NCBI RefSeq assembly: GCF_900113135.1 | Contig: NZ_FOOH01000031.1 | Span: forward strand, 1-47,384 | DNA from: Salegentibacter agarivorans | GTDB lineage: Bacteria > Bacteroidota > Bacteroidia > Flavobacteriales > Flavobacteriaceae | Direction: 5' to 3' | DNA length: 47,384 nucleotides | Shown here: positions 12,561 to 40,765 of the stretch, in pieces | Position numbering within the stretch: position 1 is the stretch's first letter | Layout of the letters: each line of letters begins with the position of its first letter | Made by a program: the position numbers and the translations under genes | Notes under the pieces: generated by a model | What the model was told of the DNA's origin: nothing | What the model saw: the letters and a program-made list of their open reading frames with translations, nothing else | Database searches by the model: none

Positions 12561-14237
12561 ATGAAGCATAATTCTTTCTCTTTTTTTCTTATTGTACTTT
12601 TTTCATTTCAAATGTTGGGGCAGGAAAAACAATTTACCCGAGCAGATACACTGCGAGGTAGTATTACCCCCGAAAGAGCCTGGTGGGACGTGCTGAGATA
12701 TGATATCCAGGTTAAACCCTCTTTTAAAAATAAATATACCTCGGGTTTTAATAAAATAACCTATAAGGTAGTCCAGGAAAACCATCCTAACCTGATGCAG
12801 ATTGATCTTCAAAAACCTTTGGTAATTGATAGTATTATCTATGACAAAAAACAAACATTGAGGTTTATTCGTGAAGGAAATGTTTATCAGGTTAAAACCC
12901 CTTCACAAAGTATGGGTTCTGAACATGAGGTGAAAATCTATTTCAGCGGTAAACCCCATGAAGCTATTCGCCCCCCGTGGGACGGTGGTTGGACATTTAC
13001 AAAAGATGAAAAAGGAAGACCCTGGATGACTGTAACCTGCCAGGGACTTGGGGCCTCTATATGGTATCCAAATAAAGATCATCAAAGTGATGAGCCGGAT
13101 AGAGGAGCATCGCTTACTATGCGTGTTTCAAAAGAATTAATGGCCGTGGCCAATGGACGTTTATTAGATAAAACTCCCCATCAGGATGGCACAATATCCT
13201 ATAAGTGGGGAGTTGAGAACCCGATAAGTAATTATACCATCATACCATATATCGGACATTATGAGAATTTCGCAGAAGTATACAAAGGTATACAAGGAGA
13301 TTTAGATTTAAATTATTGGGTCCTGGATTATAATTTGGATAAAGCCAAAGATTATATGCCCAGGGAGGTTCATAATATGCTTGATGCTTTCGAATATTGG
13401 TTTGGGCCCTATCCCTTTTATGAAGACGGTTTTAAGCTTGTGGAAACCTCAAACACGGGTATGGAACATCAATCCAATATCTCTTATGGGAATTATTATG
13501 CGGGAGGTTATAGAGGAAATGATGGCTCCGGTACAGGACTCGGATTAACCTGGGATTTTATTATTATTCACGAAAGTGGACACGAATGGTTTGGTAATAA
13601 TATTACTACAAACGACCTAGCAGATATGTACATCCATGAAAGTTTTACCAATTATAGTGAAACGCTATTTATGGATTACGTTTATGGAGAGGAAGCCGCT
13701 AACGATTATAATTACGGAACCAGGAGTGGTATCCAAAATAAGGAACCTATTATTCCATCGTATGGGGTAAACGCAAAAGGGAGTGGCGATATGTATCCAA
13801 AAGGCGGGAATATGCTTCATAGCATAAGGCATAGTATTGATGATGACAAACTCTTTAAAAATATCCTCACTGGTTTGAATATGACTTTTCATAATAAAAC
13901 GGTTGACGGTATTGAGATTCAACGATACATTTCTGAAAAATCGGGATACGATTATTCCGAAGTTTTTGCCCAATATTTGACCACGACTGATATTCCCATA
14001 TTACAACTGTATGTAGACGCTCCCAATAATAAAATGTTTTATAGGTATACCAACTGTATAGAGGGTTTCAATTTACCATTGGTTCTAAATGGTACGCAGG
14101 AACGGATTAAAATTATTCCATCTACAGAGTGGCAAAGTGTACCTATTCAGAACAGAAACCAATATCTTTTTACCCCTTGGAGAATAGAACACAAGTATTA
14201 TCTAGATGTAGAATTAGTTAAACAAATGGAAGAATAA
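12561..14237 (+). CDS. M1-family (gluzincin) aminopeptidase, secreted
   Basis: 558 residues with an N-terminal signal peptide (FSFFLIVLFSFQMLGQ). Residues about 40-260 are the beta-rich N-terminal domain of M1 enzymes and about 265-480 the thermolysin-like catalytic domain. The zinc motif is HESGH at 337-341 with Glu360 nineteen residues after the second His (HEXXH-18-E). The substrate-anchoring GxMEN motif appears as GMEH at 300-303. It removes amino acids from peptide N-termini, probably in the periplasm or outside. It lacks the large C-terminal helical domain of long M1 enzymes, as many Bacteroidota forms do. Its stop codon is followed at once by the start of the Xaa-Pro aminopeptidase gene, so they share an operon. 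Confidence 0.92.
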   Translation: MKHNSFSFFLIVLFSFQMLGQEKQFTRADTLRGSITPERAWWDVLRYDIQVKPSFKNKYTSGFNKITYKVVQENHPNLMQIDLQKPLVIDSIIYDKKQTLRFIREGNVYQVKTPSQSMGSEHEVKIYFSGKPHEAIRPPWDGGWTFTKDEKGRPWMTVTCQGLGASIWYPNKDHQSDEPDRGASLTMRVSKELMAVANGRLLDKTPHQDGTISYKWGVENPISNYTIIPYIGHYENFAEVYKGIQGDLDLNYWVLDYNLDKAKDYMPREVHNMLDAFEYWFGPYPFYEDGFKLVETSNTGMEHQSNISYGNYYAGGYRGNDGSGTGLGLTWDFIIIHESGHEWFGNNITTNDLADMYIHESFTNYSETLFMDYVYGEEAANDYNYGTRSGIQNKEPIIPSYGVNAKGSGDMYPKGGNMLHSIRHSIDDDKLFKNILTGLNMTFHNKTVDGIEIQRYISEKSGYDYSEVFAQYLTTTDIPILQLYVDAPNNKMFYRYTNCIEGFNLPLVLNGTQERIKIIPSTEWQSVPIQNRNQYLFTPWRIEHKYYLDVELVKQMEE

Positions 14238-15626
14238 ATGTTTTCACCAATAACATATATTACGAGACGAGAAGCATTAAAGAAAAAAATAAAATCTGGC
14301 ATACTGATTTTTCCCGGTAATAAGGAAACAGGTATGAACTATAATGATAACTGGTATCCATTTCGACAGGACAGTACCTTCCTGTATTATTTTGGAATAA
14401 ACCTTCCTGATTTATACGTGATAATTGATCTCGATGAAGGAAAAGAAATCCTATTTGGAAATGATTTAACTCCTGAAGACATGGTATGGGTGGGAGCCAG
14501 TGAACCCATGGTTAGCCTGGCTGAAAAATGTGGTATTAAGAAGGTGCAACCCATGTCGAAGTTGAAGGATCTTATTCAGAAAGCAAAACAAAAAGGACAA
14601 ACCTTACATTATCTGCCACCATACAGAAGTAGGGTGACCATCGAACTAGGTGAACTCATAGGCTTTCCAGTATCTACAATAGGAAGAAATTATTCTATTG
14701 AATTTGTAAAAGCAGTGATTGCGCAACGCTCTATCAAATCTCCCGAAGAGATAAAAGAGCTTCATAAAGCAGTAAATATTACGGCAGCAATGCATCGTCA
14801 TGCGATTAGAAATACCAGGGATGGTGTATCAGAAAAGCAAATCGCCGGAGAACTCCAGGCAATAGCTATTGCCGGGGGAGGGAATATTTCTTTTCCTATT
14901 ATCTTAACTAAGAACGGTCAATACCTTCACAACCACGCCACCCAGGCACGGGTAGAGAATGGAGATATTGTTTTATGCGATTGCGGTGCTGAGACTGAGA
15001 TGGGATATGCCGGGGATATGACCAGGACCTTTCCTGTGGCAGAAAGATTTACCGCTCTCCAGCGGGATGTTTATTCCATTGTTCTCGATGCACACGAATC
15101 AGCCGCCGCTGCATTAAAACCGGGATATCGATTTAAAGATGCCCATCTATTGGCCTGCACCCGGATAGTAGAGGGATTAAAAGGCTTGGGATTAATGAAA
15201 GGGGATACCGAAGAAGCTGTAGATGCAGGGGCTCACACCTTATTCTTTCAATGTGGGTTGGGACATTTTATGGGGCTGGATGTGCATGATATGGAGAATT
15301 TTGGTGAACAATTAGTGGGGTACAATGAAGACTTGAAAAAAAGCGAAAAATTTGGGTTGAAATCCCTTCGTTTGGGCAAAGAATTAGAAGAGGGTAACGT
15401 GCTAACGGTTGAACCAGGAATCTACTTTAACCCCTTTCTTATTGAGTCCTGGAAAGCGAAAGGGAATTATACGGCTTTCGTAAATTATGAGGAGGTAGAA
15501 AAGTTTAAGACATTCGGAGGAATGCGGGTGGAAGAAGATTTTTTAATAACCAGGGAAGGAAAAGAATTATTAGGTAATCCATTGGCCAAAACAATCGAAG
15601 AAATAGAAGCGCTTAAAAATGCTTAA
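14238..15626 (+). CDS. pepP: Xaa-Pro aminopeptidase (M24B, aminopeptidase P)
   Basis: 462 residues. The N-terminal aminopeptidase-P domain (about 1-150) contains FRQDSTFLYYFG; the C-terminal pita-bread domain carries the five metal ligands Asp248 and Asp260 (CDCGAE, YAGDMTRTF), His343 (GLGHFMGLDVHD), Glu392 (VEPGIYF) and Glu432 (RVEEDFLI). It cleaves the N-terminal residue when the second residue is proline, and family members can act on hydroxyproline. No signal peptide is seen, so it is cytoplasmic. It is abutted to the M1 gene (TAAATG) and followed 29 nt later by the DPP4 gene. A neighbouring DPP4 makes a proline-peptide salvage unit likely. Confidence 0.95.
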   Translation: MFSPITYITRREALKKKIKSGILIFPGNKETGMNYNDNWYPFRQDSTFLYYFGINLPDLYVIIDLDEGKEILFGNDLTPEDMVWVGASEPMVSLAEKCGIKKVQPMSKLKDLIQKAKQKGQTLHYLPPYRSRVTIELGELIGFPVSTIGRNYSIEFVKAVIAQRSIKSPEEIKELHKAVNITAAMHRHAIRNTRDGVSEKQIAGELQAIAIAGGGNISFPIILTKNGQYLHNHATQARVENGDIVLCDCGAETEMGYAGDMTRTFPVAERFTALQRDVYSIVLDAHESAAAALKPGYRFKDAHLLACTRIVEGLKGLGLMKGDTEEAVDAGAHTLFFQCGLGHFMGLDVHDMENFGEQLVGYNEDLKKSEKFGLKSLRLGKELEEGNVLTVEPGIYFNPFLIESWKAKGNYTAFVNYEEVEKFKTFGGMRVEEDFLITREGKELLGNPLAKTIEEIEALKNA

Positions 15627-15655: not shown

Positions 15656-17899
15656 ATGTACAAAAGCATAGTATTAAAACTACTTCTATTAGTTACAATT
15701 TCATTTCCTGTATTTGCACAGCAAAATGATTCTCTATTAAGCCTGGGACAGATTTACAATTCTGACGAATTCAAAAGTGATTATCAACGTCCTATCTCCT
15801 GGATTGAAAAGGGAAATGCATTCATAACTATCGAAAAAAGTGAAGCTGGTAACGATGAACTTATAAAATATAATAGTAAGAATTATAAAAAGAGTATTTA
15901 TCTTTCCGAAGATCAATTGGTCGTAAATGGGGAAAACCTAAGTATAGAAGATTTCTCATTATCACCCGATGGAAGTAAAGTAATGATCTTTACTAATTCC
16001 AGCCGTGTATGGCGTTCCAATACAAAAGGGGACTTTTGGGTATATGATTTTGATACCGAAAAACTAAAGCAATTAGGGACGGGTTTCCCTTCTTCCACTT
16101 TAATGTTTGCTAAATTTTCTCAAGATAATAAGTTTGTGGCTTACGTGCAGAACCTTAATATTTATAAAGAAGATTTTCAAACCGGGGAGGTCACTCAGCT
16201 TACCAAAGATGGGACTGGAGATATCATTAATGGTACTTTTGATTGGGTCTACGAAGAGGAGTTTGGGATGCGGGATGGTTTTAAGTGGAGCCCTGATGGT
16301 TCAAGAATTGCATTTTGGCAACTCGATGCTTCCGAGAGCGGTACTTTTTATATGATTAATAATACGGATTCAGTTTATTCTGAACCTATTCCGGTACAAT
16401 ATCCTAAGGCGGGATTTGACCCTTCTTCGGCAAAAGTAGGCTTGATCAACCCGAAGACTTCCGAAGTGAAATGGATCCCTGTCCCTGGAAATCCGGTTCA
16501 GCACTATTTACCGGCTATGCAATGGGTAAATGATGACCTGTTACTTATCCAGCAGATGAACAGGAAACAGAATGAACTGAAAATATATACCTATAAACCT
16601 TCTTCATCTTCTTTAAATAGAATATACACTGAAACTGAAAACACCTGGGTTGATCTTCGCTATCCTGATATATCTTCTAACCAATGGGGCAAGAACAATC
16701 AGTTAATCGTCGAAGATGGAAGAAGCTTTTTACGAATGACAGAAAATGATGGATGGCGCCATATTTATAAAATTAATCTGGAAACAGGAAAGAAAACACT
16801 CTTAACCCCGGGAGAATATGATGTGGCTGCATATTACCAAACTGATGGTAAAAATCTATACATAGTGGCGTCTCCTGATAACGCTACCCAGCGCTATTTA
16901 TATAGCGTTCCGCTCAATGGTGACGGGAAGTTAACAAGGATTACTCCGCCAGAATTTGAAGGGGTAAATACTTATGATGTTTCTCCAAATGGCAAATTTG
17001 CCATTCATAATTTTACCAATGTTAATACACCGAATAACGTAAGTCTGATAAATCTTCCAAAGCATAGAACGATTAAAGAATTAGTGGATAATAAGCATTT
17101 AAAAGATAAACTGAATACCCTTATTTTACCTGAAACTACTTTCTTTAAGGTGACTACAGAAGAAGGTATTGAAATGGATGGAAGGATGACCAAACCTATA
17201 AATTTTGATGCTTCAAATAAATACCCTGTTCTATTCCATGTCTATGGGGAACCCTGGGGCGTGGTAGCAACAGACCAATGGGTTGGTTTGTACGAGATTT
17301 TTATGGCGCAACAAGGATTCGTGGTAATTAGTATGGATAACCGCGGCACCCCAACTTTAAAAGGAAGCGAATGGAGAAAAACTATTTATCAAAAGGTGGG
17401 ATTAATGAATACTAATGACCAGGCATTGGCTGCACAAAAAGTATTGGAGACTTATGCTTTTTTAGATAAAACTCGCGTTAACGTATGGGGTTGGAGTGGA
17501 GGAGGTTCTATGACCCAGAATTTATTATTCCGTTATCCGGAAGTTTATCAAACAGGAGTTGCGGTAGCCGGCGTTGCCAACCAATTATTTTATGATAATA
17601 TTTACCAGGAACGCTATATGGGGTTGCCCTCTGAGGATAAGGATAAATTTATTGAAGGTTCACCGGCAAGCTATGCGAAAAATTTAGAGGGAAATTTACT
17701 TTTAATCCATGGTACCGGGGACGATAATGTTCATTATCAGAATATGGAGTACCTGGTAAATGAATTGATAAGGAATAATAAGCAATTTGATATGATGGCT
17801 TATCCAAATCGTTCACACGGGATTTTTGAAGGTAAAAATACTTCACTACACCTGTATACTCTGATTACCAATTATTTTTTGAAACACAACGGCTTATAA
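15656..17899 (+). CDS. Dipeptidyl peptidase IV (S9B), secreted
   Basis: 747 residues with a signal peptide (LLLLVTISFPVFAQ). A beta-propeller domain (about 60-480) is followed by an alpha/beta-hydrolase domain. The catalytic triad is Ser614 in WGWSGGGS, Asp689 in HGTGDDNVH and His721 in RSHGIF. The Glu pair that grips the free N-terminus of the substrate is in DWVYEEEFG (Glu200-202), which marks true DPP4 rather than other S9 enzymes. It releases X-Pro (and often X-Ala or X-Hyp) dipeptides. It is last in the operon with the M1 and Xaa-Pro aminopeptidases. Its end faces the end of the AraC gene, only 23 nt away. Confidence 0.95.
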   Translation: MYKSIVLKLLLLVTISFPVFAQQNDSLLSLGQIYNSDEFKSDYQRPISWIEKGNAFITIEKSEAGNDELIKYNSKNYKKSIYLSEDQLVVNGENLSIEDFSLSPDGSKVMIFTNSSRVWRSNTKGDFWVYDFDTEKLKQLGTGFPSSTLMFAKFSQDNKFVAYVQNLNIYKEDFQTGEVTQLTKDGTGDIINGTFDWVYEEEFGMRDGFKWSPDGSRIAFWQLDASESGTFYMINNTDSVYSEPIPVQYPKAGFDPSSAKVGLINPKTSEVKWIPVPGNPVQHYLPAMQWVNDDLLLIQQMNRKQNELKIYTYKPSSSSLNRIYTETENTWVDLRYPDISSNQWGKNNQLIVEDGRSFLRMTENDGWRHIYKINLETGKKTLLTPGEYDVAAYYQTDGKNLYIVASPDNATQRYLYSVPLNGDGKLTRITPPEFEGVNTYDVSPNGKFAIHNFTNVNTPNNVSLINLPKHRTIKELVDNKHLKDKLNTLILPETTFFKVTTEEGIEMDGRMTKPINFDASNKYPVLFHVYGEPWGVVATDQWVGLYEIFMAQQGFVVISMDNRGTPTLKGSEWRKTIYQKVGLMNTNDQALAAQKVLETYAFLDKTRVNVWGWSGGGSMTQNLLFRYPEVYQTGVAVAGVANQLFYDNIYQERYMGLPSEDKDKFIEGSPASYAKNLEGNLLLIHGTGDDNVHYQNMEYLVNELIRNNKQFDMMAYPNRSHGIFEGKNTSLHLYTLITNYFLKHNGL

Positions 17900-17922: not shown

Positions 17923-18765
17923 TTAATCGGCCTGGTGACGGTATTGCGAAGGGGTTATTCCTTTTAATTCTTTAAACTTCCGGTTAAAATTAGCGATATT
18001 CTGAAAACCACATAATTCAGAAATTACTGAAATAGATAGATCGTGATCTTTATAAAGCAACTTACACGCATGGTCTATTCGTATTTCAATTAAAAACTGG
18101 AAAAATGTTTTATTAGTTCTTTTTTTAAAATAACGACAAAAAGCATTTTTACTCATAAAAGCAATATCTGCAATATCATCCAGGGAGATACCTTCCTGGA
18201 AATTATCCATTGCATATTGAAAAACATCGTTCATTCTTTTACCTTCATCCTCGGTATATTTTTTCCTGTAAACAAAAGAGGAAAGGGGGTTTTTCTCTGA
18301 GGAAATCAACCCATTCAATAAGTAAAGAAGAGAGGCAATCCGTTCAATTTTATTTTGATGTTTAAGCTGGTTAAAAAGAATGTAATTATCTTCATTTGCT
18401 TTTATTTTCATTCCATATTCAGATTCATCAAAAAATTTTTGAACTCCTGTTAAATCTGTGATATTAAAAAAGTCTTTCCCAAAAGATTTCTTAGTGAAAA
18501 ATAAAGTATACATCACTGATTTGGGGTGGGCTTTTGCATCACTACGGAAAACGTGTGGTATGTTCTCCCCAATAACCAATATATCGTGGGGTTGGTATTC
18601 ATTAATACTGTCTCCAACTATTAATGAACCACTCCCTTCCATGATATAACTAATCTGTATTTCCTCATGTTGATGAAGCTTATCGTAGAAGACTATTTCA
18701 TGGTCTTCCTGATATACCAGCGCTTCTTTTTCAGGCTTCGGAATTTTGAAGGGTAATACTTTCAC
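17923..18765 (-). CDS. AraC-family regulator with cupin sensor domain
   Basis: 280 residues. The N-terminal half (about 15-110) has a cupin-like pattern (HQHEEIQISYIMEGSGSLIV, then PHDILVIGENIPHVF), the usual ligand-binding part. The C-terminal half (about 185-278) is an AraC DNA-binding domain with two helix-turn-helix motifs (LDDIADIAFMSKNAFCRYFK and ISELCGFQNIANFNRKFK). It is divergent from the hydroxyproline operon with 136 nt between the two starts. The shared motif at 18811-18830 lies in that gap, so it probably controls that operon and perhaps itself. Its ligand may be hydroxyproline or an arabinose compound; the sequence does not say which. Confidence 0.92.
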   Translation of the reverse strand: MKVLPFKIPKPEKEALVYQEDHEIVFYDKLHQHEEIQISYIMEGSGSLIVGDSINEYQPHDILVIGENIPHVFRSDAKAHPKSVMYTLFFTKKSFGKDFFNITDLTGVQKFFDESEYGMKIKANEDNYILFNQLKHQNKIERIASLLYLLNGLISSEKNPLSSFVYRKKYTEDEGKRMNDVFQYAMDNFQEGISLDDIADIAFMSKNAFCRYFKKRTNKTFFQFLIEIRIDHACKLLYKDHDLSISVISELCGFQNIANFNRKFKELKGITPSQYRHQAD

Positions 18766-18810: not shown

Positions 18811-18830
18811 TTTATATGTTAATATAGTAT
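18811..18830 (+). promoter_or_regulatory. Shared motif, copy 1 (before the hydroxyproline operon)
   Basis: TTTATATGTTAATATAGTAT. It matches copy 2 (23679-23698, before susC) at 18 of 20 bases, and its last 15 bases match copy 3 (28520-28534, before the S9 peptidase gene) at 14 of 15. It ends 45 nt before the first base of a -7 box (18875). A weaker second half-site, ATGTTAAGAT, starts at 18853. Direct half-sites upstream of a promoter are the usual layout for AraC activators. Confidence 0.7.
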
Positions 18831-18874
18831 CAGGTTTGGTTAATGACTACAAATGTTAAGATGATTAATCGATT

Positions 18875-18901: not shown

Positions 18902-19819
18902 ATGGCAATTAAATGGGAAGGGGTAATGCCCGCAGTGACAACTAAATTCGACGAGAATGATGAGTTGGATTTAATCACCTTTGAAAAGAATATTAACGCA
19001 CAACTGGAAGCTGGTGTAAGTGGAATCATTTTAGGGGGAACTCTAGGAGAAGCCAGTACACTAACTCCTAAGGAAAAGGAGAGCTTGGTGAAAAAAACAT
19101 TGGAAATCACCAATGGAAAAGTTCCAGTGATTATAAATATAGCTGAGCAATCCACAAAGGATGCTATTCAGGTTGCTAGGGATGCCGCTACCTGGGGTGC
19201 ACAAGGGCTTATGCTTTTACCACCTATGCGATATAAAGCTACCGATCGCGAGACGGTAGTGTATTTAAAAGAAATTGCGAAAAGTACTTCACTTCCTATA
19301 ATGATCTACAATAACCCGGTGGATTATAAGATAGAGATTAGTCTTAAGATGTTTGAAGACTTATTAGCTGAATGTGATAATATTGAGGCCGTAAAAGAAT
19401 CAACACGCGATATAAGTAATGTTATACGCCTTAAAAATAAGTTTGGTGACCGTTTAAAAGTTTTATGTGGTGTTGACACTCTGGCGTTGGAAAGTATGGT
19501 TTCCGGGGCCGATGGTTGGGTCGCGGGCTTAGTCGCTGCATATCCAGAGGAAACAGTAGCCATTTACAAGTTGGTTAAGGCAGGGGATTTAAAGGAAGCT
19601 TTGAGGGTTTATAGATGGTTCATGCCGCTCTTGGAACTTGATATTTCTCCCCAATTGGTACAAAATATAAAACTGGCCGAAGTGGCAACTGGTCTGGGAA
19701 CTGAGAATGTAAGGGCTCCAAGATTACAACTTGAAGGTGCAGAACGTAAGCGTGTTTTGTCTGTTATCGAGGATGCTATGGCAAAAAGACCTACACTAGT
19801 AGATTATAAATCATTATAA
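18902..19819 (+). CDS. DapA-family lyase, probable 1-pyrroline-4-hydroxy-2-carboxylate deaminase
   Basis: 305 residues of the dihydrodipicolinate synthase / N-acetylneuraminate lyase fold. The Schiff-base lysine is Lys165 in EAVKEST, and the conserved tyrosine is Tyr136 in MIYNNPVDY. GGTLGEASTLTPKEK marks the substrate pocket. Fold membership is certain. The specific reaction is inferred from neighbours: in hydroxyproline catabolism an enzyme of this family removes water and ammonia from pyrroline-4-hydroxy-2-carboxylate to give 2-oxoglutarate semialdehyde (HypD in Sinorhizobium literature). The next genes encode the semialdehyde dehydrogenase, a hydroxyproline epimerase and a D-amino-acid dehydrogenase, which completes that pathway. 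Cytoplasmic; first gene of the operon. Confidence 0.88.
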   Translation: MAIKWEGVMPAVTTKFDENDELDLITFEKNINAQLEAGVSGIILGGTLGEASTLTPKEKESLVKKTLEITNGKVPVIINIAEQSTKDAIQVARDAATWGAQGLMLLPPMRYKATDRETVVYLKEIAKSTSLPIMIYNNPVDYKIEISLKMFEDLLAECDNIEAVKESTRDISNVIRLKNKFGDRLKVLCGVDTLALESMVSGADGWVAGLVAAYPEETVAIYKLVKAGDLKEALRVYRWFMPLLELDISPQLVQNIKLAEVATGLGTENVRAPRLQLEGAERKRVLSVIEDAMAKRPTLVDYKSL

Positions 19820-21410: not shown

Positions 21411-22412
21411 ATGGCAAGAAAAACTTTTTTTTGTGTGGATGCCCATACCTGTGGGAACCCTGTGAGGGTAGTAGCTGGTGGTGGTCCTTTCATTGAAGGA
21501 AAAACCATGAGTGAAAAGAGGCAAAATTTTATGCGAGAATATGATTGGATTAGGAGGGGTTTAATGTTTGAACCTAGGGGCCATGATATGATGAGTGGGA
21601 GCATTTTGTTCCCGCCATCAGATCCCCAAAATGATTGTGGTATTCTTTTTATTGAAACTAGTGGCTGTCTGCCTATGTGTGGACACGGTACCATTGGTAC
21701 GGTAACCGTGGCAATTGAAGAAGGTCTGGTTACACCGAAAAAACCAGGTATTCTACGCCTCGAAACACCGGCTGGCCTTGTAAAAGTTACTTATAAGCAG
21801 GAAGGAAAAAAAGTAAAATCTGTCAAAATTGTCAATATTAAATCTTACCTGGCTAAAGAGAATATCACTGTAAACTCCAGTGATTTGGGTGATTTAATCG
21901 TAGATGTTTCCTATGGTGGAAATTTCTATGCTATTGTAGAAGTCCAGGATAACTTTAAAGGACTTGAACACTACCAGGCAAGTGAATTGATAACCTGGAG
22001 CCGGGAACTTCGAAATAATTTGAATGCCGAACATAGCTTCGTGCACCCTGAAGACCCAACGATCAATGGACTAAGTCATATTCAGTGGACAGGTTCCGTA
22101 ATAAATGAAAATTCCACCGCTAGAAATGCAGTTTTTTATGGAGATAAAGCAATTGACCGTTCTCCATGTGGAACAGGTACATCTGCAAGAATGGCGCAGT
22201 GGTATGCAAAAGGTAAATTAAAAATGGGTGATGAATTTATCCATGAAAGTATAATTGGAAGCAGGTTTATTGGGAGAATAGAAGAAGAAACAGAATTGGC
22301 TGGAATTAAATCAATTATTCCCAGTATAGAAGGGTGGGCAATGGTAACAGGCTATAATAATATAGTAATCGATGATGATGATCCCTATGCCCATGGGTTT
22401 CAGGTACTTTAA
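21411..22412 (+). CDS. 4-hydroxyproline 2-epimerase (proline racemase family)
   Basis: 333 residues. Proline racemase family members use two active-site residues as acid and base; here both are cysteines, Cys90 in PMCGHGTIG and Cys253 in SPCGTGTSA. That fits a racemase or epimerase and excludes the related dehydratases, which have Thr at the first site. It would invert C2 of trans-4-hydroxy-L-proline to give cis-4-hydroxy-D-proline. The presence of all downstream enzymes favours hydroxyproline over proline as substrate. Cytoplasmic. The next gene starts after 10 nt. Confidence 0.93.
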   Translation: MARKTFFCVDAHTCGNPVRVVAGGGPFIEGKTMSEKRQNFMREYDWIRRGLMFEPRGHDMMSGSILFPPSDPQNDCGILFIETSGCLPMCGHGTIGTVTVAIEEGLVTPKKPGILRLETPAGLVKVTYKQEGKKVKSVKIVNIKSYLAKENITVNSSDLGDLIVDVSYGGNFYAIVEVQDNFKGLEHYQASELITWSRELRNNLNAEHSFVHPEDPTINGLSHIQWTGSVINENSTARNAVFYGDKAIDRSPCGTGTSARMAQWYAKGKLKMGDEFIHESIIGSRFIGRIEEETELAGIKSIIPSIEGWAMVTGYNNIVIDDDDPYAHGFQVL

Positions 22413-23678: not shown

Positions 23679-23698
23679 TTTATGTGTTAAGATAGTAT
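23679..23698 (+). promoter_or_regulatory. Shared motif, copy 2 (before susC)
   Basis: TTTATGTGTTAAGATAGTAT matches copy 1 (18811-18830) at 18 of 20 positions. It ends 45 nt before the first base of TAAGTTTA (23743-23750), the same distance as in copies 1 and 3. A second half-site, ATGTTAAG, begins at 23716. Confidence 0.7.
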
Positions 23699-30852: not shown

Positions 30853-30895
30853 CTTCGCTTGACCAGGAATAATATAGTTGAAAATTTATTTAATA

Positions 30896-33800: not shown

Positions 33801-33964
33801 CACGAGAAGAATGGCGAAAAGTAGTTTTAAATGCTAAGGATTTAAGCAGTTCCATTGAGGGCGACCCGGGCAAATTGCATTTCACTATTGACGGGGTTGT
33901 TTTCAAGCCCTTCTATGAAACCTATGGGCGTCATTCCGTTTACCTGGATGTTGAATTGAAATAA
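30896..33964 (+). CDS. GH127-type beta-L-arabinofuranosidase (DUF1680) with LamG-like domain
   Basis: 1022 residues from the ATG at 30896. A TTG at 30878 is in frame, but the ATG gives a standard signal peptide (IPIYLSLILVACSGIIFPTQ). Residues about 40-235 are a LamG/concanavalin-like domain (FSITGWVFLRSSES, HDIRLYRIPL), about 295-360 an Ig-like linker (LKPGKYVVEGRIPGT), and about 370-1020 the glycosidase. The zinc-thiolate site of characterised GH127 enzymes (E-x-C then C-C) is conserved: Glu751 and Cys753 in NETCATYN, Cys821-Cys822 in FTCCNGT. These enzymes release beta-L-arabinofuranose, including from arabinosylated hydroxyproline. GH146 is a close sister family, so the family number is not certain. 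Second gene in the operon. Confidence 0.88.
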   Translation: MRVANRIPIYLSLILVACSGIIFPTQAQSGDQILDGIGETGLIARYVLDGDVRDWSRNNLHAELNGQYEFVNDEKFGKVLSLPGKGKAYMAIPGEALNGEESFSITGWVFLRSSESNQQFFDFGKSRKNHFSASPTGSKKQEGFQAQIVMGDKKKQSLAAPLVNTNKWVHLAVVVDFPSQTLTAYLDGKPVGKKENTTIDLQELFDSKSTENLLLVGKSLVPGHPYLNASLHDIRLYRIPLRDGQVSRIYNNSTGDGSSLVNEGEEKEDNLQRFSKTAPQLYNKYLKSVSDLMVETEVGQMPRLPRYVDGVYQDGIEGPEVRVLWPAPNDNSSVLKPGKYVVEGRIPGTNIRPKATVIVNAAKLEAAAAPNRRLEAFGLNQVSLNPDVNGDDSKFIENRDKFVLTLAETNPDSFLYMFRNAFGQEQPEGAEPLGVWDSQETKLRGHATGHYLTAIAQAYASTGYDESLKDNFAEKMEYMVNTLYELSQLSGRKAKTSKEFVSDPTAVPTGPGKSEYNSDLSEEGIRTDYWNWGEGYISAYPPDQFIMLEKGASYGGQEDQVWAPYYTLHKILAGLMDIYEVSGNEKALAIARGMSDWVNLRLSELPTETLISMWNTYIAGEYGGMNEAMARLYRITNEPSYLKGAQLFDNIKVFFGDAQHSHGLAENVDSFRGLHANQHIPQIVGALETYRGSGSPEYFQVADNFWFKAKNDYMYSIGGVAGARNPVNAECFVSQPATLYENGFSEGGQNETCATYNMLKLSRDLFLYDQRTELMDYYERGLYNHILASVAEDSPANTYHVPLRPGSIKHFGNPDMKGFTCCNGTAIESSTKLQNSIYFKNRDNQALYVNLFVPSTLNWTERNIRVEQTTAFPKEDHTQLRISGEGKFDLNIRVPQWATKGFFVKINGKKENVAAVPGSYLKLSREWKDGDTVELQMPFAFHLDPVMDQPNVASLFYGPVLLAAQESEPREEWRKVVLNAKDLSSSIEGDPGKLHFTIDGVVFKPFYETYGRHSVYLDVELK

Positions 33965-34032: not shown

Positions 34033-35727
34033 ATGAAAAGACTCATTAGCACATTTATAATTTTTCTCACAATATGTAGTGTTAGCTCTGCTAATGAAAT
34101 GGTAGATATTATTAACACTTTTAAAGCAGATAAAAATGCCCTAAGAGGAACTTATACCATTAAGGAATCTGAAGAATATTATCAACGCTTTTTCCAGTTT
34201 TATGATAATTGGGAAAACAGGATTAAAGAAATTAAATTTAAGGATCTTACACCAACTGAAAAGGTAGATTATGTTTTGCTGAAAAACCTGATCGAAAAAG
34301 AAGGCTATTTATTAAACCAGGATTATAAAGCTTTTGAAGAGGTAGCTTCCGTAGCGGATTTTACTGAAATTTTATTTCCGTTTATCCAGGAAAGGAGGCG
34401 GGGAAAGCAGCCAGATGCCAAGGTGTTGGCTCAGCAGTTTAAAAAGGCTGAAGAAATTATTCAAACGAAAATAAAACAACTTGAAAACGATAAATTCCAG
34501 GATTGGCTTATAGCCGAAAAAGCAGCTGGGATTGTCACTTCATTTCAGCAAGGTTTAAAAGAAGCTTATAATTTTTATTATGCATATGACCCGGATTTTA
34601 CGTGGTGGATGGAATCCCCTTACAAATCTCTAGATGAAGACCTCACCAAGTATTCAGACTTTTTAAAAGAAAATTATTCTAAAGAAAGTATAAAGGATGA
34701 CGGAAGCGGTATAATTGGGAAACCGGTGGGTAGAAAAACTCTTATTCGGAACCTAGAATATGAATTTATTCCATATACCCCGGAAGAACTCATTGAAACT
34801 GCTGAAAAACAGTTTGAGTGGTGTAAGCAGGAAATGATTAAGGCTTCCCAGGAAATGGGTTATGGCAATGACTGGAAGGCAGCTTTGGAACATGTGAAAA
34901 ATACATATGTTGAACCTGGTAAGCAGCCGGAAGCAATTAAAGATTTGTATGATCATTCGGTAGATTTTATTGAAAAGCGCGACCTTATAACTTTTCCCGA
35001 GATGGCGAAAGAGACCTGGGGCATGATCATGATGACCCCGGAACGCCAAAAAGTGAACCCTTTCTTTACAGGTGGTTGGGAAATTAGTATTTCTTACCCT
35101 ACGCAAGGGATGTCCCACGAAGATAAGCTAATGAGCATGAGGGGAAACAATCCTAATTTTTCTTTTCCTACAGTGCAACATGAACTTCTGCCTGGTCATA
35201 ACCTCCAGTTTTATATGAATGCCCGTCATAAACCTTACAGGAGTGTTTTTGGTACCCCGTTCTGGATGGAGGGTTGGGCACTTTATTGGGAAATTAACCT
35301 TTGGAATAAGGATTTTCCAAGAACACCAGAAGAAAAAATGGGAATGTTGTTTTGGAGAATTCACAGGTGTGCTAGAATTATATTTTCCCTTAAATATCAA
35401 TTGGGAGAATGGACTCCACAAGAATGTATAGATATGTTAGTTGATGAAGTAGGACACGAGTATGCCAATGCAGAAGCCGAGGTACGCAGGTCTTTTGCAA
35501 CTTCTTATACGCCGCCATTATACCAGCTGGCATATATGGTGGGGGGACTTCAATTTTATGCCCTACGCAATGAATTACTCGAAAAAGGCTGGACAGAAAA
35601 GCAATTCCATGATCGGGTTATGCAGGAAAATATGATGCCGGTTTCAGTGCTTCGGTTCCTTTTGGAAAATAAAGAAATACCTGAAGATTATAAAGCGAGC
35701 TGGAAATTCTCAACTGACTTTAAATAA
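34033..35727 (+). CDS. DUF885 metallopeptidase-like protein, secreted
   Basis: 564 residues with a signal peptide (LISTFIIFLTICSVSSA). It belongs to the DUF885 family: mostly helical, with HELLPGH at 383-389 and the second conserved block EGWALYWE with Glu413. The HExxPGH arrangement with a downstream Glu is that of a zinc peptidase, and the family is believed to be peptidases, but substrates are poorly known. Here it is inside an operon of glycosidases and a prolyl peptidase, which points to cutting of glycopeptides or of the deglycosylated Hyp/Pro-rich chain. It starts 68 nt after the GH127 gene and ends 18 nt before the GH51 gene. Confidence 0.88.
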   Translation: MKRLISTFIIFLTICSVSSANEMVDIINTFKADKNALRGTYTIKESEEYYQRFFQFYDNWENRIKEIKFKDLTPTEKVDYVLLKNLIEKEGYLLNQDYKAFEEVASVADFTEILFPFIQERRRGKQPDAKVLAQQFKKAEEIIQTKIKQLENDKFQDWLIAEKAAGIVTSFQQGLKEAYNFYYAYDPDFTWWMESPYKSLDEDLTKYSDFLKENYSKESIKDDGSGIIGKPVGRKTLIRNLEYEFIPYTPEELIETAEKQFEWCKQEMIKASQEMGYGNDWKAALEHVKNTYVEPGKQPEAIKDLYDHSVDFIEKRDLITFPEMAKETWGMIMMTPERQKVNPFFTGGWEISISYPTQGMSHEDKLMSMRGNNPNFSFPTVQHELLPGHNLQFYMNARHKPYRSVFGTPFWMEGWALYWEINLWNKDFPRTPEEKMGMLFWRIHRCARIIFSLKYQLGEWTPQECIDMLVDEVGHEYANAEAEVRRSFATSYTPPLYQLAYMVGGLQFYALRNELLEKGWTEKQFHDRVMQENMMPVSVLRFLLENKEIPEDYKASWKFSTDFK

Positions 35728-35745: not shown

Positions 35746-38079
35746 ATGAAAATTACCTTCAAGCTTCTTATTGTCCTTGCTTGCTTTTTTTCGGCCTGTA
35801 GTGAGAAAGAAAACAATAGCCTTCTTTCTCCACGTGAAGGGGGAAATATAAAAGAACAAGGCTGGCAGTACGAAGAATGGAGTCCTACGGAATTATTTTC
35901 TGATACGCTTTCGGAAAATTATAACACCAAAGTCTTGATTTTACATTCAGATAGTCTCATTACCGAGCGTTGGTTCAAAAAAATAGGGGTAAAGCCCTTT
36001 GCAGAATATAAAGTTTCAGGATATATAAAAACGGTAAATGTTGCCGGGGAAAGTAAGGAAGCTGGTGCGGGTTTTCGTCTGGGGAAATTTGATTTTAAAG
36101 GTGACACTATTTTTAAAGGTACTACCAATTGGACCAAAGTAGAAATGGAATTTTCAACCGAAATGGATGATAGTTTTATTTTGGAGCTTATCCTAGGCAA
36201 AGGTGGTAAAGCTAAAGGTAAAGTTTATTTTGATAACCTGAGGTTAGAAGAAATATCTGCAGATTATTTAAATCCCACCGTGAAAATTGAACCGGAGAAG
36301 AAATTAGAGCCAATGTCACCCTATATCTACGGGCAGTTTATAGAACATATGGGTAAGTCCATTTATGGCGGAATCTGGGCGGAAATGTTGGAGGATCGTA
36401 AGTTCTATTACACCCCGGGTACCTCAAAGTCCCCCTGGTATGCCTCTCTGGATACAAATGAAGTGGGTATTGATAGTTCATACTCCTACTCTCAGGGAAA
36501 ACTACCGGTTATTCAAGTTGAAAAGAAGATAACCTTAAATCAGGATAATTTAAGCCTCGAATCAGGTGAAAATTATGTGGGGCGGATAGTTTTTAAAGGT
36601 GATGGAATTAATGAAGTGATCATTTCCCTCAATGGAAATAAAAAATCATTTGTAATTGATAAAGAAATAGAATTTCAGAAAATTCCTTTTGAATTTTCTG
36701 CGGAATCTGACACCAAAACCGGGTCATTGGAATTTAATTTTATAGGCACGGGTGATCTTACATTAGCTGCTGTTTCATTAATGCCTGCAACTAATATTAA
36801 GGGATACCGTCCTGGGGTAATCAATTTAATGAAAGAATTGAATTCACCAATTTACCGATGGCCCGGAGGAAATTTCGTTTCAGGTTATGACTGGAAAGAC
36901 GGCATAGGCGATCCTGATAAACGCCCAACCAGATTTGAACGTGCCTGGAATGGCTTGGAATATAATGATGTCGGGATTCATGAATTTATGCAATTATGCG
37001 AAATTCTTGAAGCCAAAGCCAATATTGCAGTGAATACCGGCTTAGGTACTGCCCAACTTGCAGCAAACAAGGTTGAATATATTAATGGTTCCAGGCATAC
37101 CAGAATGGGAAAATGGAGAGCAAAAAATGGGCATCCAGATCCCTACAATGTGAAACTTTGGGCAGTTGGAAATGAAATGTTCGGGGATTGGCAGTTGGGA
37201 CATATGCCTATTGAAGAATACGTTGAAAAACACAATAAAGTAGCTAAGGAAATGTGGGATATTGATCCCGACATTGAATTAATAGCCGTAGGATATCCAG
37301 GGAAGTGGAATAATATGATGTATGAGCACTGCAGCGAGAACATGACCTATATCAGTGAGCATTTTTATAAACAAGATTGGCATGCTGGTGGCTTGTTAAC
37401 CCATGTAAATCAAATGCCAGCAATAATTAAAGAGGTTGCCGAAGAGCATCGCAGGGCCAGGAGGGAAATTCCCGGTATTAAAGAAAAGAATATTAAAATT
37501 GCGATGGATGAGTGGAATTACTGGTATGGTCCCCACGTTTATGGACTTTTAGGTACCCGATATTTTCTTCGCGATGCCCTGGGGATTGCCGCTGGATTAA
37601 ACGAGTTTTCCCGGCAATCAGATATTTATTATATGGCAAATTATGCTCAAACTGTAAATGTTATTGGAGCCATTAAAACCACCAAGACGGAAGCCTGGCT
37701 TGAAGGAACTGGACTGGTCTTAAAACTATACCGAAACCAATTCGGTACACAGCCAATTGAATTATCCGGAAATCCTCAACCATTGAACGTTGCTGCAACC
37801 ATCACTGAAGATGGTAAATTCCTAACAGTTTCAGTGGTAAATGCTACACATAAAGATCAGGTTCTGGAAATAGAGGAAGCTGCTAATACCATACGTAATA
37901 CAGGAACATCTTATATTATTTCAGGAGAAAATGATATGGTGTACAATGATGAAGATAATCCAAAAAGAATTAAAATTACTGAAGCTGAAATTCTAATTTC
38001 AGAGAACAAGCTTGACATTCCCCGTGAAAGTGCAGGCATTTATAAATTTAGCCTAATTGAGAACAGTTATGAAAATTAA
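35746..38079 (+). CDS. GH51 alpha-L-arabinofuranosidase, lipoprotein
   Basis: 777 residues. It has a lipoprotein signal with FSAC and the lipidated Cys at 18. Residues about 40-180 look like a CBM4-type beta-sandwich (YKVSGYIKTVN, GKVYFDNLRLEE). From about 190 comes the GH51 (beta/alpha)8 domain with YGQFIEHMG, an inserted beta region, and YRWPGGNFVSGYDW. The acid/base is Glu477 in AVGNEMFG and the nucleophile Glu589 in AMDEWNYW. The C-terminal beta domain ends the protein. It releases terminal alpha-L-arabinofuranose. The lipid anchor places it at the outer membrane or periplasmic face. Its stop overlaps the next gene by 11 nt. Confidence 0.94.
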   Translation: MKITFKLLIVLACFFSACSEKENNSLLSPREGGNIKEQGWQYEEWSPTELFSDTLSENYNTKVLILHSDSLITERWFKKIGVKPFAEYKVSGYIKTVNVAGESKEAGAGFRLGKFDFKGDTIFKGTTNWTKVEMEFSTEMDDSFILELILGKGGKAKGKVYFDNLRLEEISADYLNPTVKIEPEKKLEPMSPYIYGQFIEHMGKSIYGGIWAEMLEDRKFYYTPGTSKSPWYASLDTNEVGIDSSYSYSQGKLPVIQVEKKITLNQDNLSLESGENYVGRIVFKGDGINEVIISLNGNKKSFVIDKEIEFQKIPFEFSAESDTKTGSLEFNFIGTGDLTLAAVSLMPATNIKGYRPGVINLMKELNSPIYRWPGGNFVSGYDWKDGIGDPDKRPTRFERAWNGLEYNDVGIHEFMQLCEILEAKANIAVNTGLGTAQLAANKVEYINGSRHTRMGKWRAKNGHPDPYNVKLWAVGNEMFGDWQLGHMPIEEYVEKHNKVAKEMWDIDPDIELIAVGYPGKWNNMMYEHCSENMTYISEHFYKQDWHAGGLLTHVNQMPAIIKEVAEEHRRARREIPGIKEKNIKIAMDEWNYWYGPHVYGLLGTRYFLRDALGIAAGLNEFSRQSDIYYMANYAQTVNVIGAIKTTKTEAWLEGTGLVLKLYRNQFGTQPIELSGNPQPLNVAATITEDGKFLTVSVVNATHKDQVLEIEEAANTIRNTGTSYIISGENDMVYNDEDNPKRIKITEAEILISENKLDIPRESAGIYKFSLIENSYEN

Positions 38080-40765
38080 GAAAGCAAAGATTTTATTATT
38101 CCTATTATTTATAGGAGCGACGGGTATATCGCAGGAAAAATCAACCTATTGGGATAATATTATAGATAGGGAATCAACCTTGGGTCTGGAAGATGGTTTC
38201 ATTGAATTGAAAACCGAGGAATTTACCCTAAAGTTGGTAAAAGCATCTCAAACCGTTGCAAAGCTTTCTCCAAATTCTGATCCTGATTTCGATTTCACCC
38301 CGGGTGAGCGAATTGAAACCCGAGACAAAGACAGTATTTATTATATAGGGGATTTAAATTTCAGAATAAAAGATAAGGATGGAAAATATAAATCTTTTTC
38401 TACGGCATATAATCGTAAGAAGGTGGAGGCATTGCCGGCCTCAGGAACCGTCCTTGCAGCTTCAGACCTAAGCAATACACTACCTGAAGATAATCCTTTA
38501 GCGATTAAAAGATATTACGAAGAAAAAGATGGTGGTTTATTAATGAGGTTTGAAATAACAAATCCTACCAGTATTCCAATAGAAATAGGGGCGCTGGGGG
38601 TACCAATGGCATTTAATAATATTTTAGAAGGGAAAAACCTTGATGAAACCCATGCAGATAATGTGTTTTTTGATCCTTATATCGGAATGGATGCGGGGTA
38701 CCTGGAAGTAAAGCACCTTACCGGGGAGGACGAGGCTTTATTGGTATTACCAGGAGAGAATATGCCATTTGAAGCTTATCGCCCGCTTTTGGATGATCCA
38801 AGTAACAGGAGTATTGTATTTGAAGGTGTACACGAATGGATGGCATTATCCAAAGCCTATGCGGAAAATGAATGGAAAGGTGTGGAACAATGGAACCAGC
38901 CAACTTCCTTGACTTTAAAAGCGGGAGAAACCCAGGATTTCTCTTTGAAGTTTGTTTTGGCACCAGGAATTGAACAAATTCAGGATAAGCTTATCGAAGA
39001 GGGACGTCCGGTTGCTGTGGGTATCCCAGGCTATGTGTTGCCAATGGATGTAGAAGCAAAATTATTTCTCAATTACCCAGAAGCAGTTGAAGATATAAAA
39101 ATTGAACCGGAAGGTGCCCTAGAAATAATGGAAGCCGAAAGGAAACCGGGTGGGTTTACAGCATATGAGTTGCATGGAAAAAAGTGGGGCAGGGCCCGGG
39201 CAATTATTACTTATAAAGATGGTCTAAAGCAGAGTATCAATTATAAAGTTATAAAACCTGAAAGCGAAGTTGTAGATGATTTTGGTGATTTTTTAATGAC
39301 ACAACAATGGTTTGATCAACCTGATTCTCTTTTTGGCAGAACCAACTCCGTAATTTCTTATGATTATGAAACAAAAAAGCAATTAACCCAGGATAGTCGT
39401 GCATGGGTCGCTGGTTTAAGTGATGAAGGAGGAGCTGGGAGTTGGCTTGGCGCAATTATGAAGCAATTGATTCAGCCTGAAAAAGAAGAAATTAAGAAGC
39501 TTCAAAAATTTATAGATGAAACCATGTGGGGTGGTATCCAATATTCAGAGGGAGAGCTAAAATATGGAGTCAAGAAAAGTATTTTCTATTATGAACCTGA
39601 GAAAATGCCAGAAGGCACTTACAGTGATACCATAAATTATAATACCTGGGCTGCATGGAATAAAAAAGGAGCAGATGATCCCGGAAGGTCTTATAATTAT
39701 CCTCACGTGGCAGCTGCACATTGGGTAATGTACAGGTTGGCCAGATACCAGGAGAACCTGGTAGATAATCATAGCTGGAGGTGGTACCTGGAAAATGCAT
39801 ATCATACTGCAGTAGCGATGAACCGCTTGGCACCACACTATGCCCAATATGGTCAGATGGAAGGTACTGTGTTTCTTATGATTCTTAAAGATCTTCAAAG
39901 AGAAGGCTTAAATGACTTAGCTAGCGAGCTTGAAACCGAGATGAAAAAACGAGCTGATGTATGGGAATCATTAAACTATCCTTTTGGCTCTGAAATGCCT
40001 TGGGATTCTACCGGCCAGGAAGAAGTATATATGTGGAGCGATTATTTTGGCTACGATCAAAAGGCTGATATTACTTTGAATGCAATCCTAGCTTACATGC
40101 CCACTATGCCTCACTGGGCGTATAATGGAAATGCAAGGCGATACTGGGATTTTCTTTATGGGGGTAAATTATCCCGTGTAGAAAGGCAAATTCATCATTA
40201 TGGTTCCGGATTAAATGCTATTCCGGTTTTAAAAGCTTATCGCAATGATCCAGATTTCTATTTATTGAAAGTGGGCTATGCAGGAACCCTGGGTGCAATT
40301 GCCAATATAACCCAGGATGGATTTGGTCCGGCTGCTTTTCATTCCTACCCATCTACTTTAAGGATTGATTACCATTCAGGGGATTATGGCTCAGGGTTTT
40401 TCGGCTATGCTATAAATTCTGCGACTTATATTACAAAGGAAGAGAATTATGGATGGTTAGCTTTTGGAGGTAATTTGAAAACTAAAAATAATACGGTTGA
40501 AGTTGAGCTAACTACGGCCGCTAAAGATAAAGTTTTTCTAGCTTCAGAAAATTTATGGATAATATTAGATGCGGGAACCATTGAGAAGGTAAGTTATAAC
40601 CAAAAGAATAAAGAAGTTAAATTACAACTTAGCAAAAAAAATAAGTTCACACCTATGGCATATTTGCGCTCCAATAAGGATCTTGACCTGGACTTCAAAA
40701 AAATAAGGGATGCATACCAGATAGAACTTGATACTAAAAAACAGGAAATTATTATTAAATTATAA
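38069..40765 (+). CDS. DUF5695-like secreted protein, probable carbohydrate-active enzyme of unknown activity
   Basis: 898 residues from the ATG at 38069. A TTG start at 38057 is possible, but the ATG gives a clean signal peptide (ILLFLLFIGATGISQ). The N-terminal block (GFIELKTEEFTLKLVKASQT, then DFDFTPGERI, then YYIGDLNFRIK) is typical of DUF5695 proteins. The middle is beta-rich; from about 430 the protein becomes helical with many aromatics (HVAAAHWVMYRLARY, WEFL-type helices, GSEMPWDSTGQEE), like an alpha/alpha-barrel glycosidase or lyase. No catalytic residue can be named with confidence. It overlaps the GH51 gene by 11 nt, so the two are co-translated. It may supply a linkage activity missing from GH51 and GH127. 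Confidence 0.8.
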   Translation: MKIKKAKILLFLLFIGATGISQEKSTYWDNIIDRESTLGLEDGFIELKTEEFTLKLVKASQTVAKLSPNSDPDFDFTPGERIETRDKDSIYYIGDLNFRIKDKDGKYKSFSTAYNRKKVEALPASGTVLAASDLSNTLPEDNPLAIKRYYEEKDGGLLMRFEITNPTSIPIEIGALGVPMAFNNILEGKNLDETHADNVFFDPYIGMDAGYLEVKHLTGEDEALLVLPGENMPFEAYRPLLDDPSNRSIVFEGVHEWMALSKAYAENEWKGVEQWNQPTSLTLKAGETQDFSLKFVLAPGIEQIQDKLIEEGRPVAVGIPGYVLPMDVEAKLFLNYPEAVEDIKIEPEGALEIMEAERKPGGFTAYELHGKKWGRARAIITYKDGLKQSINYKVIKPESEVVDDFGDFLMTQQWFDQPDSLFGRTNSVISYDYETKKQLTQDSRAWVAGLSDEGGAGSWLGAIMKQLIQPEKEEIKKLQKFIDETMWGGIQYSEGELKYGVKKSIFYYEPEKMPEGTYSDTINYNTWAAWNKKGADDPGRSYNYPHVAAAHWVMYRLARYQENLVDNHSWRWYLENAYHTAVAMNRLAPHYAQYGQMEGTVFLMILKDLQREGLNDLASELETEMKKRADVWESLNYPFGSEMPWDSTGQEEVYMWSDYFGYDQKADITLNAILAYMPTMPHWAYNGNARRYWDFLYGGKLSRVERQIHHYGSGLNAIPVLKAYRNDPDFYLLKVGYAGTLGAIANITQDGFGPAAFHSYPSTLRIDYHSGDYGSGFFGYAINSATYITKEENYGWLAFGGNLKTKNNTVEVELTTAAKDKVFLASENLWIILDAGTIEKVSYNQKNKEVKLQLSKKNKFTPMAYLRSNKDLDLDFKKIRDAYQIELDTKKQEIIIKL

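Follow-up and report, generated by a model that had tools for sequence, protein, structure and literature searches.

Polysaccharide utilization loci (PULs) of the Bacteroidota are built from a SusC/D pair, periplasmic glycoside hydrolases (GHs) and a local regulator. A locus that resembles them in each of these parts, and differs from them in adding peptidases and the full catabolism of a glycan-bearing amino acid, hydroxyproline (Hyp), occupies positions 12561-40765 of the 47,384-nucleotide stretch of Salegentibacter agarivorans DNA (NZ_FOOH01000031.1; the window) analyzed here. Its nearest precedent is the proteobacterial HypR regulon, which depends on a GntR-type regulator and, in Alteromonadales, takes in collagenases, proline peptidases and also a TonB receptor (PMC5343134); a Hyp regulon that extends upstream to protein degradation is therefore not wholly new. 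The window locus shares with HypR of Alteromonadales and Aeromonas the hypE/O/D/H core and the extension to peptidases and a TonB-dependent transporter (PMC5343134), but it differs in its AraC-type regulator, its SusC/D transporter, its predicted arabinosyl-Hyp glycosidases, its operator motif and its phylum. A second likeness is to the hypBA1-hypBA2-hypAA systems of Bifidobacterium longum and Xanthomonas euvesicatoria, in which a β-L-arabinofuranosidase of the GH127/GH146 fold and an α-L-arabinofuranosidase act on Hyp-linked arabinans (PMC10850190, PMC6085000, PMC7263609); unlike the window locus, these systems use GH121 and GH43 enzymes, and the cited part of one of these papers mentions neither peptidases nor Hyp catabolism (PMC10850190). 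For Latescibacteria, degradation of Hyp-rich glycoproteins (HRGPs) has been predicted, with extensin as the proposed target of GH127, alongside proteolysis; that prediction, in contrast to ours, derives from the gene content of single-cell genomes and, in the portion cited, makes no link to Hyp catabolism (PMC4454575). In the cited portion of a genome-neighborhood study (PMC4113996), the word stem Bacteroid- occurs once, among the references, peptidases are named once, as neighbors of a Bacilli cluster, and the stems arabino- and glycosid- do not occur. Among the literature matches listed, in which subscription journals are thinly covered, we found no Bacteroidota locus uniting GH127/GH146, SusC/D, peptidases and Hyp catabolism. 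The author of the original prediction, which was made from the window sequence, knew of no such locus either.

We judge it probable that the locus is a single regulon of four transcription units for feeding on arabinosylated Hyp-rich protein of the extensin type, from plants or green algae. Extensin carries α-galactose on Ser and one to five arabinofuranose (Araf) residues on Hyp, and chlorophytes have the same two innermost β-Araf residues (PMC5371791). Profile scans (Pfam, NCBIfam) of 28 window proteins, with signal peptides and N-termini judged by eye, recovered all genes that the original prediction had named, at the coordinates it gave. These genes, their intact catalytic residues where checked, a common operator motif and recurrence in relatives are the observations on which our reading is built. 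An AraC-type regulator gene between the peptidase operon and the Hyp operon had been missing from the earlier account. The genes are as follows.

12561..14237, plus strand: M1 metallopeptidase (PF01433), zinc motif H337ESGH, signal peptide-like N-terminus
14238..15626, plus strand: Xaa-Pro aminopeptidase (AMP_N + M24; PF05195, PF00557), no obvious signal peptide
15656..17899, plus strand: DPP4-type S9 peptidase (DPP4a; PF00930, PF00326), DWVYEEE motif, signal peptide-like N-terminus
17923..18765, minus strand: AraC-family regulator, cupin and HTH_18 domains (PF12833, PF02311), divergent from the Hyp operon
18902..19819, plus strand: DHDPS-fold enzyme (PF00701), predicted from its operon context to be the pyrroline-4-hydroxy-2-carboxylate deaminase (hypD)
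19836..21404, plus strand: aldehyde dehydrogenase (PF00171), predicted 2-oxoglutarate semialdehyde dehydrogenase (hypH)
21411..22412, plus strand: 4-hydroxyproline 2-epimerase (hypE; NF010578), Cys90 and Cys253 motifs
22423..23664, plus strand: FAD D-amino-acid dehydrogenase (PF01266), predicted D-Hyp dehydrogenase (hypO)
23815..26796, plus strand: SusC-type TonB-dependent outer membrane transporter (TIGR04056, 761 bits)
26808..28391, plus strand: SusD-type surface lipoprotein (PF07980, PF14322)
28591..30852, plus strand: S9 peptidase (DPPIV_N + S9; S9b; PF00930, PF00326) without the DWxYEEE motif, signal peptide-like N-terminus
30878..33964, plus strand: GH146-like β-L-arabinofuranosidase (PF07944, PF20736) with LamG and Big_4 modules
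34033..35727, plus strand: DUF885 predicted zinc peptidase (PF05960), HELLPGH, signal peptide-like N-terminus
35746..38079, plus strand: GH51 α-L-arabinofuranosidase (PF06964; structure match 3s2c, 8e-74), lipoprotein-like (lipobox-like) N-terminus
38057..40765, plus strand: DUF5695 protein (PF18951, 1296 bits), candidate carbohydrate-active enzyme, signal peptide-like N-terminus

The adjacent SusC and SusD genes are a feature shared with PULs, and at the family level the hypE/O/D/H set is complete. The epimerase scores 601.4 bits against NF010578, whose curated cut-off is 376, while the specific equivalogs of hypD, hypH and hypO remain below cut-off: the best NCBIfam matches of hypH are to 2,5-dioxovalerate/α-ketoglutaric semialdehyde dehydrogenase, and hypO lies under the cut-off for D-amino acid dehydrogenase. 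The name hypD is taken from PMC5343134. Three operons had originally been proposed; four units are suggested instead, because a terminator-like hairpin and a copy of the operator part SusC/D from the S9 operon.

28440..28466, plus strand: terminator-like hairpin between the SusD and S9 genes, with an 11-bp perfect stem, a 5-base loop and a following CTTTT

This hairpin was seen in the sequence and was missed by a terminator scan that required five T in eight; the fold z-score of positions 28425-28480 is −6.1, and it is probably a terminator.

The four units appear to be tied together by a shared operator motif, of which the window holds four candidate copies.

12450..12478, minus strand: candidate operator of the M1 operon, 83 bp before the start (position weight matrix [PWM] score 13.1; 24-mer with one mismatch)
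18817..18845, plus strand: candidate operator of the Hyp promoter, 85 bp before the DHDPS start (PWM 25.0)
23685..23713, plus strand: candidate operator of the SusC promoter, 130 bp before the start (PWM 14.8)
28521..28549, plus strand: candidate operator of the S9/GH promoter, 70 bp before the start (PWM 19.2)

The gaps in front of the DHDPS, SusC and S9 genes all contain TGTTAA(T/G)AT(A/T)GTAT(C/T)A, and the best three-way 16-mer of these gaps (42/48) was reached by none of 400 dinucleotide shuffles; at word lengths k=30 and k=36 the count was again 0/400, and at k=20 it was 3/400. An early consensus had been built from these three window sites, so that exact matches there arise by construction; less circular tests are the shuffles, a PWM with the window left out, the genomes of relatives, a per-gene tally and control promoters. 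In the araC-Hyp gaps of relatives, the element reads approximately GGTAATATAGTAT, with a further TAAT some 21 bp downstream of the first one; it is recognizable in the 19 other AraC-DHDPS gaps that we aligned, one of which (L122) is degenerate. The 29-column PWM was trained on these 19 Hyp promoters (loci of our choosing, with L122 included and the window left out). Scores of at least 14 occur in random regions at 0.125 per 100 kb and were reached by one of 201 control promoters (11 control regions from the same family and a twelfth from the same order; 260 bp upstream, both strands; a one-strand version likewise gave 1/201), and by one of 630 over all 40 control regions.

We tallied sites gene by gene in the 28 loci, out of 158 scanned, whose AraC protein is at least 45% identical to that of the window. 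At a PWM score of at least 14, sites precede 11 of 13 SusC copies and 10 of 12 S9b copies, both S9b misses lying inside a Hyp operon, and none precedes the operon-internal GH127 (0/9) and DUF885 (0/10) genes; of the Hyp promoters outside the training set, seven of nine pass. The S9-promoter site is found in the same place in Salegentibacter salinarum DSM 23400 and the Salegentibacter metagenome-assembled genome (MAG) oa5, the two nearest relatives, and in L013-L016, L018, L130, L132 and L133; the SusC-promoter site has the same place in S. salinarum, and an orphan copy of it is left in oa5. A GH127-DUF5695-GH43-GH97 operon that lies about 22 kb away in G380 and G259 has a site of its own (22.7 and 27.2). 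Collectively, these data support the view that the transcription units of the Flavobacteriia loci examined are linked through the motif. Because the araC gene adjoins the most conserved operator copy, we infer that the AraC-type regulator binds these sites.

Genome-wide searches with the gapped 24-mer allowing one mismatch gave seven sites in the 4.3-Mb genome of the window: those of the Hyp, SusC and S9 promoters (no mismatch, by construction), that of M1, and C20:226086, C43:4059 and C52:32940. Such scans covered four relatives. S. salinarum has four sites, which are exactly those of its Hyp, SusC, S9 and M1 promoters (M1 start 174208, site 174294), and the four sites of oa5 are those of Hyp and S9, the SusC site left there without its gene, and one that precedes M1 by about 80 bp, M1 itself being placed about 31 kb from the Hyp genes in this genome. 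In Zunongwangia atlantica and Zunongwangia mangrovi, where M1 is located on another contig and about 27 kb from the Hyp operon, respectively, a site is found 71 bp before the M1 start, along with three and one further sites. PWM scores before M1 are 18.0 in S. salinarum, 24.1, 27.8 and 24.1 in three Zunongwangia, 12.0 in oa5, and 14.3 and 14.7 in L120 and L125.

The association of these functions recurs across the phylum. In an evenly drawn sample of 392 Bacteroidota genomes, the window genome included, the epimerase (E ≤ 1e-90) is present in 79. A PF07944 (GH127-family) gene lies within 10, 15 and 25 kb of it in 10, 13 and 16 of these 79 genomes, with chance expectations of 0.43, 0.64 and 1.07; for DUF885 the counts are 14, 18 and 20, with expectations of 0.46, 0.69 and 1.15. 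PF07944 matches below 49 bits (weak, or second pieces of one gene) and DUF885 matches under the cut-off were dropped, and split DUF885 pieces merged, before counting. Genome counts are not independent owing to kinship: at 15 kb the 13 GH127-linked genomes represent seven genera and the 18 DUF885-linked genomes 13. We also compared the flanks of the Hyp operons in the 78 other epimerase genomes with 40 random regions, one from each of 40 of these genomes (E ≤ 1e-20). The flanks more often held S9 (16/78 vs. 1/40), Xaa-Pro aminopeptidase (10/78 vs. 0/40), DUF885 (11/78 vs. 0/40) and GH127/146 genes (10/78 vs. 0/40); any of GH127/146, GH51 or DUF5695 was found in 12/78 vs. 0/40, and any peptidase type in 23/78 vs. 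2/40. Enrichment of SusD (4/78 vs. 1/40) and DUF5695 (3/78 vs. 0/40) was not significant. The long, window-type GH127-like enzyme occurs in 13 of the 392 genomes, 11 of which carry the epimerase, compared with 68 of the 379 others (Fisher 6.8e-7; 2.8e-6 without the window); this test takes the 392 genomes of the epimerase and long-enzyme searches as one set, their handles and totals being in agreement. The link that the original prediction had proposed between removing the sugar, cleaving the peptide and degrading Hyp thus recurs in several families of the phylum. Chance neighborhood is ruled out by the co-location counts, the control regions, the co-occurrence and the operator shuffles. The same results make it very improbable that an arabinan or type II arabinogalactan PUL lies by accident beside an unrelated Hyp operon. 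GH51 and GH146 enzymes are indeed common in arabinan PULs, and another PF07944 gene of the same genome is found about 4 kb from araA. The enzyme BT0349 was moreover assayed on arabinan-derived arabinotetraose, and it acts on this substrate and on β1,2-arabinobiose (PMC10850190). This explanation is, however, at odds with the shared motif, with the fact that a PWM derived from the Hyp promoters of other genomes picks out the SusC and GH promoters, and with the repeated co-location and co-occurrence.

The partner genes reshuffle yet return at Hyp loci. The order AraC-Hyp-S9-GH127-DUF885 is found in Z. atlantica, Sinomicrobium and Galbibacter (L014, L016, L018); in L120 and L125, S9 and DUF885 genes lie between hypE and hypO, and Xaa-Pro aminopeptidase, DPP4 and M1 genes follow beyond araC on its strand. 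A GH127-family gene is inserted between hypE and hypO in L050 (= L094), L060 and L068; with HypBA1-like GH127 in L076 and L107 and GH146 in L050, three branches of the GH127/146 fold occur beside the Hyp operon. In MAG oa5 (G010), a deletion has left nothing of SusC/D but 39 residues of SusD (87% identical; at about 15.1-15.6 kb of L009), and the Hyp operon and the S9-GH127-DUF885-GH51-DUF5695 operon are adjacent despite this loss; the GH genes, which share the operator motif with SusC and Hyp, are thus kept in a relative devoid of SusC/D. Absence of the M1 operon from oa5 was considered and ruled out by the distant orthologue with its operator site. A DUF6055 (+DUF4859) gene is found repeatedly near the regulon (L008:8356-10251, L010:4485-6404, L018:4074-5972), and G298 has one next to its long GH127 gene; operator scores before DUF6055 genes are 22.0-28.0 in the stretches L210, L211 and L213 and 12.1 in S. 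salinarum.

These gene orders bear on the alternative that the regulon serves protein only (collagen, gelatin or Pro/Hyp peptides), the GH genes being passengers or serving another sugar of the meal, which we regard as unlikely. Such a reading agrees with the proteobacterial HypR regulons, for which the cited part of the source names collagenases, proline peptidases and TonB receptors but mentions no arabinosidase (PMC5343134), and with L126, L131, L134 and L139, which have a Xaa-Pro-peptidase-like gene and SusC under the motif and no GH127/146, GH51 or DUF5695 gene within 10 kb. Yet one of these four GH-poor loci, L131, does have a GH36 gene, no collagenase family is present among the 28 window proteins scanned, and the three GH127-family branches beside or within Hyp operons, as well as the operator in front of the GH operon of G380 and G259, some 22 kb off, speak against this alternative.

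The sugar-active enzymes of our proposed glycoprotein regulon are themselves informative. The protein encoded at 30878..33964 had been labeled GH127; its best structure matches are instead to GH146 (5opj, 1e-62; 8k7y, 5e-41; 8k7x, 1e-40), while the GH127 enzyme HypBA1 (3wkw) is matched at E = 2e-8 only, which rules out a strict GH127 assignment. The protein branches apart from the GH127 and GH146 proteins compared, among them those of GH146 type from other Hyp loci, and may therefore belong to a subfamily of its own. Alignment predicts a Cys3-Glu zinc site (E757, C759, C827 and C828; compare E723, C725, C804 and C805 in PMC10850190) and a candidate acid/base residue, E736; the zinc ligands and E736 are kept in 11 of 11 long-type sequences aligned, and the loop before E736 is about six residues longer than in GH146. 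Since the GH146 members XeHypBA1 and Bll4HypBA1 act on Araf-β-Hyp, the new label would fit the idea of a Hyp-arabinoside substrate better than the old one; it helps the original prediction and leaves the specificity unfixed, Bll3HypBA1, for instance, being β1,3-specific (PMC10850190). GH51 membership is borne out by the GNE (E477) and DEWN motifs. The protein at 38057..40765, described earlier as DUF5695-like, is present, and "like" was too weak a word for a full family match; it has no match in the PDB, and its AlphaFold model (mean pLDDT 54, low confidence) has a β - helical - β order. The araA gene is located elsewhere in the genome (contig C23).

Loci of relatives add GH43, GH36, GH97, GH42, M24 prolidase and GH2 genes, S. 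salinarum having GH2 within its peptidase operon, and 20 of 158 loci have an amino-acid permease gene. The GH43, GH36 and GH97 enzymes would fit the Ser-α-Gal/Hyp-Araf glycans of extensin. They can be accommodated as well if the same regulon is aimed at arabinogalactan protein (AGP) or at a galactose-bearing algal Hyp-glycan (e.g., chlorophyte Hyp-Ara2-Gal) and not at land-plant extensin: the genera of the nearest loci, Salegentibacter and Zunongwangia, are marine or saline, and the GH2, GH42, GH36 and GH97 genes point in this direction. Furthermore, chlorophyte extensins have Hyp-Ara2 with galactofuranose (PMC5371791), and a Chlamydomonas HRGP has Ser-O-Gal (PMC11015965). We hold this substitution to be decidedly unlikely; no galactanase is present among the 28 window proteins scanned.

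As to the peptidases of the extensin-directed regulon that we favor, the DWVYEEE motif of DPP4a is, we take it, the mark of the dipeptidyl peptidase IV type. Residues H383, E384, H389, E413 and E420 of DUF885 are invariant across 26 sequences, and this conserved HE...H with downstream Glu predicts a zincin peptidase. A distant DUF885 subfamily, 21-25% identical to the window protein (tblastn map; L137 also aligned), is encoded directly before hypE in other Hyp operons (L095, L137, L147, L155, L156 and L159), a second hint that DUF885 enzymes may process Hyp peptides.

From these parts the following pathway can be proposed. The AraC-type regulator would bind the motif in response to hydroxyproline or a close product of it, and SusC/D would import Hyp-glycopeptides into the periplasm. 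There, GH51 would take off the terminal α-L-Araf, the GH146-like enzyme would remove β-L-Araf down to Hyp, and DUF5695 would remove or bind remaining sugar. The bared Pro/Hyp-rich peptide would be cleaved in the periplasm by the S9 enzymes, M1 and the zincin DUF885, and the Xaa-Pro aminopeptidase would complete its breakdown inside the cell. Epimerase, D-Hyp dehydrogenase, deaminase and semialdehyde dehydrogenase would convert Hyp to 2-oxoglutarate, and L-arabinose would be burned via the araA pathway encoded elsewhere.

A number of observations weigh against this reading. At up to two mismatches, the genome of the window holds 74 operator matches (38+36) vs. 92 (46+46) for a reversed-pattern control; the earlier consensus gave three vs. 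four, and the picture in the genomes of relatives is similar. Since the genome-wide total does not exceed that of the reversed control, the case rests on the location of the good matches. The M1 operator of the window is the weakest copy and is reversed, and there is no site before M1 of Sinomicrobium, where the gene follows DUF885 in the S9 operon, or before the best M1 of Galbibacter (50% identical and perhaps a paralogue). Two Hyp promoters outside the training set score under 14 (L137, 8.0; L029, 13.8), and no site precedes DUF6055 in oa5 and Galbibacter (−2.9 and −5.9). A further PWM match lies inside hypO at 23280 on the minus strand (13.6), with counterparts at or near the same place in S. 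salinarum (18.3) and Zunongwangia (13-15; L013-L015); a second, looping-related site and a coincidence of coding are both conceivable. At the level of gene content, 66 of the 79 epimerase genomes have no GH127-family gene within 15 kb, most Hyp operons standing alone, so that separation of the Hyp operon from the carbohydrate-active enzyme genes, which would have refuted the original prediction had it been found in all relatives, is seen in most of them and not in all (13/79 linked). M1 (4/78 vs. 1/40) and SusC (10/78 vs. 4/40) are not significantly enriched singly. GH51 is found within 10 kb of the Hyp operon in 0/78 sampled genomes and is therefore a local feature. The long enzyme occurs without an epimerase, at the E-value threshold used, in 2 of 13 genomes and is far from it or on another contig in 4 of 11. 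The GH127 fold covers other activities, the best NCBIfam match of the window enzyme, far below cut-off, being aceric acid hydrolase. Pfam matches name no Hyp-specific secreted endoprotease in the window, and no GH121 either, although no search was aimed at GH121.

Within the genus of the window, the epimerase is present in three of 15 genomes searched (window included), and among 40 relatives searched the long GH127-like enzyme (E=0) is found in the same three Salegentibacter genomes. This patchy presence of the locus would fit gain by transfer or repeated loss. Adjoining the locus, window positions 42578-44785 hold a Toprim/CHC2 primase-like gene and an integrase-like gene, the latter matching arm-binding and SAM-like domains only. 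Directly ahead of the locus, an RND efflux operon (AcrB-type, HlyD, OEP) with a TetR regulator is located at 5659-11949, and a RhuM-Fic two-domain protein (PF13310 + PF02661) is encoded at 942-1937.

On balance we lean towards a broader proposal, namely that the Bacteroidota hold a distinct class of whole-glycoprotein regulon. In it, an AraC-type Hyp regulator and a direct-repeat operator would govern deglycosylation, import through SusC/D, proteolysis and the breakdown of the very amino acid that bore the glycan; a SusC/D system would be induced by the free amino acid and not by a sugar, and peptidase and GH operons elsewhere on the chromosome would still stand under the operator. Hyp-rich glycoproteins occur widely in the walls of plants and green algae, and the arabinose and galactose that coat their Hyp/Ser backbone shield it from proteases. 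If our reading is true, the regulon would explain how such glycoprotein returns to the carbon and nitrogen cycle, and it would hint at what DUF885, DUF5695, DUF6055 and the long GH146-like enzymes do. It would also mean that control of a PUL-like locus can lie with the amino-acid moiety of a glycoconjugate, and it raises a simple question: can hydroxyproline turn on a SusC/D system?

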